Assembly: GCA_025362495.1 (NCBI GenBank)
Contig: JANYGI010000148.1
Coordinates: 1-42,239, forward strand
Direction of reading: 5' to 3'
Length of the DNA: 42,239 nt
DNA from: Byssovorax sp.
Lineage (GTDB): Bacteria; Myxococcota_A; Polyangia; Polyangiales; Polyangiaceae
Position numbers and translations under genes: made by a program. The notes beneath the pieces were generated by a model. The model was not told the origin of the DNA and made no database searches. It worked only from the letters and a program-made list of their open reading frames with translations. Of this stretch, positions 4,398 through 6,317 are shown piece by piece (positions within the stretch are counted from its first letter, which is position 1; each line of letters begins with the position of its first letter).

Positions 4398-6317
4398 GTG
4401 GGTGGCCCGTCGGTGAGCTGCGGGGCCGGCGCCCAGGTCGGCGCGCCATGGCCGTTGCGTGGTCGCTGCTCCGGCCGCGCGGGCCGCGCCGACGTCATCG
4501 GTCCCGCCACGAGCCACATCCGATGGACCTTCTCCGCTCAGGGCCGCTTCAGCACCTCACCCGTCATCGACAAGAATGGCATTGTCTACATCGCGTCGGA
4601 CGACCAGCATCTTTACGCGGTGACTCCGGCGGGCGCCATGAAGTGGGTGTTCCCCCTGGGAGCACTGCCCAGCGTCGGCCTGGCGATCGGCGCGGACGGT
4701 ACGATCTATGCCGGCGACGACAATGGCACTATCTACGCGATCAACCCGGATGGTAGCCAGAAGTGGGCGCTGTCGACAGGGTTGAGCCCCGCGACAGCGC
4801 CGGCTCTCGCCGATGACGGAACCATCTATGTAACCGCGGGTAACACGCTCTTCGCAGTGAACGATGGCGGGACTGGCAAGCCCTTCTGCGAGATCCCGCG
4901 CTCCACGGCCGAAGACATCGAGAAGGCCCTCGACGCCGCGCACGCGGCCCGCGCCGCCTGGGGAAAGACCTCGCTCACCGAGCGATCGAACCTCCTCAAC
5001 AAGATCGCCGACCGCATGGAGGCGAACCTCGAGATGCTCGCGCTCCACGAGACGTGGGACAACGGCAAGCCCATCCGCGAGACGATGGCCGCCGATCTGC
5101 CGCTCGCCGTCGACCACTTCCGCTACTTCGCGGGCGTGATTCGCGCCCAGGAGGGCAGCGCCGCCGAGATCGACGCCAACACGATGGCCTATCACATCTA
5201 CGAGCCGCTCGGCGTCGTGGCCCAGATCATCCCCTGGAACTTCCCGCTTCTCATGGCCGTCTGGAAGATGGCGCCCGCGCTCGCCGCCGGTAACTGCATC
5301 GTCCTCAAGCTGGCCGAGCAGACGCCCGCGAGCATCCTCGTCTGGGCCGAGCTCTGCGCCGATCTCCTCCCGCCCGGCGTGCTCAACATCGTCAACGGCT
5401 TCGGCGTCGAGGCCGGCAAGCCCCTCGCGAGCAGCAACCGCATCGCCAAGGTGGCCTTCACCGGCGAGACGACGACTGGCCGTCTCATCATGCAGTACGC
5501 CTCCGAGAACCTGATCCCCGTCACCCTGGAGCTCGGCGGCAAGTCCCCCAACATCTTCTTCGACGACGTCTTCGCGAAGGACGACGACTACGCGCAGGAG
5601 GTGATGGAGGGCTTCGCGACGTTCGCCCTCAACCAGGGTGAGGTCTGCACGTGTCCTTCGCGCGCGCTCGTCGCCGAGAAGATCTACGGCCAGTTCACCG
5701 AGCGCGCCGTCGAGCGCACTCGCCGCGTCAAGCCCGGTAACCCGCTCGATCCGGCGACGAACCTCGGCGCGCAGGCCTCGCACGATCAGCTGGAGAAGAT
5801 CCTCAGTTACATCGACATCGGCAAGAAGGAGGGCGCCAAGGTCCTCACCGGCGGTCGTCGAGCGGAGCTCGAAGGCGATCTGGCGGGCGGCTATTACGTG
5901 GAGCCGACGATCTTCCAGGGCAACAACAAGATGCGGATCTTCCAGGAAGAGATCTTCGGGCCCGTGGTGAGCATGACGTCGTTCAAGGACGAGGCCGACG
6001 CCGTCGCGCAGGCCAATGACACGCTCTATGGCCTCGGCGCCGGCGTATGGACGCGCGATGGGTCGACGGCCTATCGCATGGGCCGCGCCATCCAGGCGGG
6101 CCGGGTGTGGACCAACTGCTACCACCTTTATCCCGCGCACGCGGCGTTCGGCGGCTACAAGCACTCCGGCATCGGCCGCGAGAACCACAAGATGATGCTC
6201 TCGCACTATCCAGAAGCTCGTCGCCGTTCATGGCCCGCTGATGTTCCACCAGTCGGGGGGCTGCTGCGATGGCAGCGCCCCGATGTGTTACCTGAAGGGC
6301 GAGTTCCGCCTGGGTGA
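4398..6317 (+). CDS. Chimeric frame: PQQ-like beta-propeller segment fused to truncated aldehyde dehydrogenase
   Basis: Residues ~40-155 are PQQ-like propeller repeats ([50 protein letters not shown]). At ~156-162 the sequence switches in frame to an NAD-dependent aldehyde dehydrogenase of the AcoD/ExaC type ([20 protein letters not shown]). The ALDH core is well preserved: PWNFP (Asn281), FTGETTTG (354-361), Glu378 in LELGGKSP, catalytic Cys417 in [11 protein letters not shown], and EEIFGPVV. The family's usual ~45-50 N-terminal residues are missing. After NHKMMLSHY (~604) the frame leaves the family and encodes an unrelated tail to 6317, so the last ~20 family residues are also lost. No signal peptide is seen. 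A GTG at 4398 is the best start but is uncertain. Two deletions, or an assembly join, would explain it; activity is doubtful because ALDH oligomerisation uses the missing C-terminus. Confidence 0.7.

Follow-up and report, generated by a model that had tools for sequence, protein, structure and literature searches.

An apparent propeller-aldehyde dehydrogenase fusion in Byssovorax sp. looks like a damaged or mis-joined stretch of three neighboring genes

When a PQQ-like propeller and an aldehyde dehydrogenase share one open reading frame, is this a gene fusion or the remains of separate genes? Such a frame lies in the stretch of DNA analyzed here (the window), the 42,239 nucleotides of contig C96 from a 10.8-Mb draft genome of Byssovorax sp. 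(240 contigs; 96.6% complete). From a GTG at 4398 to a stop at 6317, the plus strand reads as a single uninterrupted frame of 639 aa, in which a Pfam scan placed PQQ_2 at residues 73-155 (36.7 bits against a cut-off of 27.6) and Aldedh at residues 149-606 (508.5 bits). The in-frame joint of these two domains, proposed in a first-pass annotation, is therefore borne out. When the outer ends of the two partners and the gene that follows were checked, two more breaks came to light that the annotation did not include, one before the propeller (D1, ~4398) and one at the dehydrogenase end (D3, ~6210); with the joint itself (D2, ~4864-4875) between them, 1.9 kb holds three breaks. Judged from sequence, three neighboring genes with lost ends look like a damaged or mis-joined stretch, not a new kind of enzyme. 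The features of the locus are as follows.

2676-4127, minus strand: Ser/Thr protein kinase gene, the divergent neighbor, open throughout; protein 84% identical to the copy on contig C37
4396-4401: break D1; ~260 bp of the C37 paralogue absent (start codon, lipoprotein-like signal, Ser-rich linker)
4398-4863, plus strand: propeller fragment with 3 of 8 blade ends; native start and signal absent
4864-4875: break D2; propeller joined in frame to dehydrogenase, with ~620 bp of propeller (by C37) and dehydrogenase codons 1-42 gone
4872-6209, plus strand: core of an ExaC-type acetaldehyde dehydrogenase, short of 42 residues at the N-terminus and 18 at the C-terminus; Cys and Glu columns conserved
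6207-6212: break D3; lost are the C-terminal end of the dehydrogenase with its stop, the intergenic DNA and the start of DUF779 (113 bp by comparison with genome G013)
6208-6549, plus strand: DUF779 gene; native start absent, with the domain match beginning at 6208 and the first listed ATG at 6241
6210-6317, plus strand: wrong-frame tail of the open frame, ~35 codons of the DUF779 gene read out of frame

An intact copy of the left part of this neighborhood, with kinase and propeller genes back to back, is found on contig C37 of the same genome. The C37 propeller has 439 aa and eight blade ends, and its N-terminus reads like that of a lipoprotein, including the motif LGVTGCG, which we take to be the lipobox. 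The window fragment resembles this PQQ-like propeller lipoprotein (Pfam PQQ_2, Beta-prop_ACSF4) in its divergent kinase neighbor and in a PQQ_2 match over the gathering score, with 66% identity over the matched 170 residues, but it has only three blade ends and lacks the full blade ring, the start codon and the signal. At the DNA level, window positions 2500-4398 are 85% identical to C37 and positions 4401-4863 are 76% identical, after which the match stops; between these two collinear matches, 262 bp of C37 (locus L039, 5087-5348) have no counterpart in the window. By eye, no Shine-Dalgarno-like stretch was seen in the 20 bases before the GTG at 4398. A search of the genome with the C37 propeller (E up to 1) returned C37, C96, a third propeller on contig C2 (37%) and 11 weaker partial matches, and no separate copy of the missing propeller parts was found in the assembly. 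The duplicated tract as a whole covers 1664-4863 of the window and 2349-5811 of L039; between the two copies the left neighbor gene and the kinase have 84% protein identity, and the DNA from 2500 on is 76-85% identical.

The loss at D2 comprises five of the eight blades of the propeller together with dehydrogenase residues 1-42. The first-pass annotation had put the N-terminal loss at ~45-50 residues, close to the 42 given by alignment, in which the core starts at residue 43 of the G013 enzyme (TGKPFCE). Its suggestion of a 'GK' micro-homology shared by both halves did not hold: the C37 paralogue reads NAAGSLKW in this region and the enzyme relatives read PVTGK, PVNGR, PVTGR or PVNGK, so that GGCAAG may derive from the enzyme side alone. 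From these comparisons the exact breakpoint is placed only to within 4864-4875. Since both halves are true coding frames, retention of frame across one break is a plain one-in-three chance. In all 13 dehydrogenase relatives, a GC-rich group with six of its members in one genus, the frame also remains open ahead of the assigned native start, by 22-432 codons. An open frame that holds two domains in phase is, in GC-rich DNA, not necessarily a gene fusion.

The enzyme relatives were drawn from 34 candidate loci, of which 22 passed a motif and length filter (left out were the 12 loci L014, L018, L029-L035, L039, L042 and L060); nine of the 22 were second or third fetches of the same genes and were set aside, and the remaining 13 were used. 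These 13, all from other genera, carry full-length genes of 506-512 aa that are 71-82% identical to the window core, and both native ends lost in the window are present in every one. Residues C301 and E262 (G013 numbering), presumably the catalytic Cys and Glu of the ALDH family, are invariant in all 14 rows of the alignment, the window among them. Against the NCBIfam ExaC profile NF050026 the core scores 836.9 bits over profile positions 33-488 of 503, under the curated equivalog cut-off of 900. Like the ExaC genes of the relatives, it is followed by a DUF779 gene; unlike ExaC proper, it lacks both ends, falls below the cut-off and lies in frame with a propeller fragment. The solved chains 9koi, named ExaC, and 9fm9 were matched by the G013 enzyme, not by that of the window, and by title none of the papers listed in a literature search on ExaC and its structure dealt with bacterial ExaC. 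The window enzyme is the only ExaC-type one in its genome, the next best being 41-44% identical; a full-length G013 query (E up to 10) found neither a second ExaC-type gene nor a separate copy of the missing parts, although a 42-residue piece could escape such a search. A separate truncated paralogue lies on contig C64 of the same genome (L155, 1387-2325, minus strand), where a full-length dehydrogenase is directly followed by a frame of 312 aa whose dehydrogenase match is half-length (profile 9-232 of 461).

Beyond D3, at which an overlap of 3 bases (ATC) is possible, the frame runs into the third gene; the last ~35 codons are therefore the DUF779 gene in the wrong frame. The DUF779 domain (PF05610) itself is nearly whole (profile 2-94 of 94), whereas the native start region is absent. 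This is the sole DUF779 match in the genome, and a DUF779-like match lies downstream of the dehydrogenase in all seven relatives' stretches compared.

Neither half shows relaxation or decay, as judged from a 14-sequence dehydrogenase tree and from comparison of the propeller with C37. The dehydrogenase part has no stop in 447 codons. Its branch length in amino acids stands to that in third positions as 0.17 (0.00-0.41 for the other 13), and it carries four private changes at 238 otherwise invariant columns, where the others have 0-7, and 24 in the most distant; one of the four replaces Pro by Leu next to the conserved Lys in the KPAE stretch. Against C37, dN/dS (NG86) is 0.30 for the propeller part and 0.29 for the kinase, with dN and dS of the propeller part each about twice those of the kinase. 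Third-position GC is 0.785 in the propeller half and 0.924 in the dehydrogenase half, a difference that has the same sense in their intact counterparts, with 0.859 for the C37 propeller and 0.947 for the G013 enzyme. Since both halves still look constrained, the breaks are either recent or were made in assembly.

That pieces are missing is shown by comparison with the paralogue and the relatives. Of the accounts of their loss, real deletions by illegitimate recombination in the sequenced strain provide the best reading, one that we hold to be probable by a little. Three short deletions, with micro-homology of at most a few bases, would have removed the start of the lipoprotein propeller gene, then the stretch from its fourth blade through the start of the neighboring ExaC-type dehydrogenase gene, and then that from the end of the dehydrogenase gene through the start of its DUF779 partner; the 639-codon open frame would be a by-product of the one deletion that kept frame. 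We infer that the breaks are biological and recent, perhaps a single complex event, that the three genes formerly stood side by side, and that no working enzyme results. Three independent recent deletions without other damage would be an improbable run; a single complex event, or a fault of assembly, is the more economical account. Comparison with the homologues reveals no long overlap at any of the three breaks, and this argues against an assembly join driven by repeats; because the native flanks are known only from homologues ~75-85% alike, overlaps of several bases may still exist at the breaks. The deletion origin that the first-pass annotation proposed for the joint thus fits, but the functional fusion of a secreted-type repeat with a cytoplasmic enzyme that it envisaged does not, as start, signal, five of eight blades, both enzyme ends and the start of the downstream gene are lost and no fusion was seen in the relatives searched. 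Should the breaks be biological, the strain is left without its one dehydrogenase of the ExaC type.

A fault of assembly or reads is a possible explanation, though one we rate below actual deletion: the organism would carry three intact genes, and the contig would skip three segments through gap closing, chimeric reads or low coverage. In its favor are the crowding of three skips into 1.9 kb, next to coding sequence that shows no decay, and the draft state of the assembly (240 contigs). Against it, no other contig was found to carry the missing pieces, the breaks lack long overlaps, and eight of ten other chosen window proteins have their domain covered nearly end to end in Pfam (the other two are an FAD oxidoreductase, 2-371 of 443, and a MauG-like protein, 7-108 of 149). 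Genome-wide, at least 440 of the 461 Aldedh profile positions are covered in 10 of 16 matches, and for aminotransferases 14 of 20 matches span 300 or more of 361; this is a weak control, because the damaged gene itself covers Aldedh 7-457 and would pass. The first-pass annotation had also held that normal propeller and dehydrogenase genes elsewhere in the strain, with no spanning reads, would refute the fusion. A normal propeller does exist, the C37 copy, but at 66% it is non-identical, and no second ExaC-type gene was found.

Whether the fusion recurs in related genomes was examined with a joint query of 144 residues centered on D2. In the order (183 genomes, own included), 122 genomes match at E 1e-6; among the matches listed for the 182 others none is the same fusion, and the strong ones outside the own genome are confined to one half of the query. 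Six weak listed matches (27-37% identity) cross or nearly cross the joint, with query residues 7-144 in G084, 11-144 in G031, 6-111 in G159, 35-144 in G006, 43-142 in G118 and 55-144 in G016. All were rejected as fusions: that of G159 is a propeller without a dehydrogenase match, and the other five are plain dehydrogenases with no propeller match. The fusion was likewise absent at E 1e-20 from the 376 other genomes of a phylum sample (377, own included), which overlaps the order set; in the 40 of these genomes that match, every match starts between query residues 62 and 75, within the dehydrogenase half or immediately ahead of it. When the propeller half was searched against GTDB contigs, 80 of 151 loci were kept and only L122 had a dehydrogenase match, which is 32% identical and lies ~2 kb away from the propeller. 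A literature search on propeller and ALDH fusions gave no paper. Within what was searched, the propeller-dehydrogenase fusion is not conserved.

It is quite unlikely that the dehydrogenase core is still expressed alone from an internal start with partial function; the constraint on the core would agree with this, but that constraint can wholly predate the breaks, and all 13 aligned relatives retain the ends that it lacks. In a model of the G013 enzyme, three strands (E21-23, E26-28 and E35-39) are predicted within the 42 residues that are lost; this middling model (pLDDT 68) falls below 50 from residue 451 and so is unreliable at the C-terminus. The C-terminal residues of ALDH enzymes lie in the subunit-contact domain. 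A model of the fusion (pLDDT 53, pTM 0.42, 12 sequences) is poor and carries little weight either way. Hardly credible at all is a functional fusion with the propeller fragment as partner or scaffold for the dehydrogenase, for although no stop interrupts the frame at the joint and the Cys and Glu columns of the active site are conserved, the product has three blades of eight, no native start, signal or visible ribosome-binding stretch, neither enzyme end, a DUF779 partner without its start, and no counterpart in the relatives searched. We give scarcely any credence to the related conjecture of a strain-specific cytoplasmic propeller-ExaC fusion, a chimera caught soon after its origin, in which the three-blade fragment would replace the lost N-terminal strands. 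Were the fusion to work, it would be a very young chimeric enzyme.

Two further observations concern the surroundings of the locus. Near the left end of the contig, ~3 kb from the collapsed locus, an apparently incomplete IS66-family transposase frame lies at 461-1135 on the plus strand (DDE_Tnp_IS66, 82.6 bits, profile 2-190 of 284). In G013, a kinase gene (L036, 565-2697) with 73% DNA likeness to window 2676-4127 over 711 bp lies ~2 kb upstream of the dehydrogenase, in the opposite orientation to that in the window, perhaps by chance.
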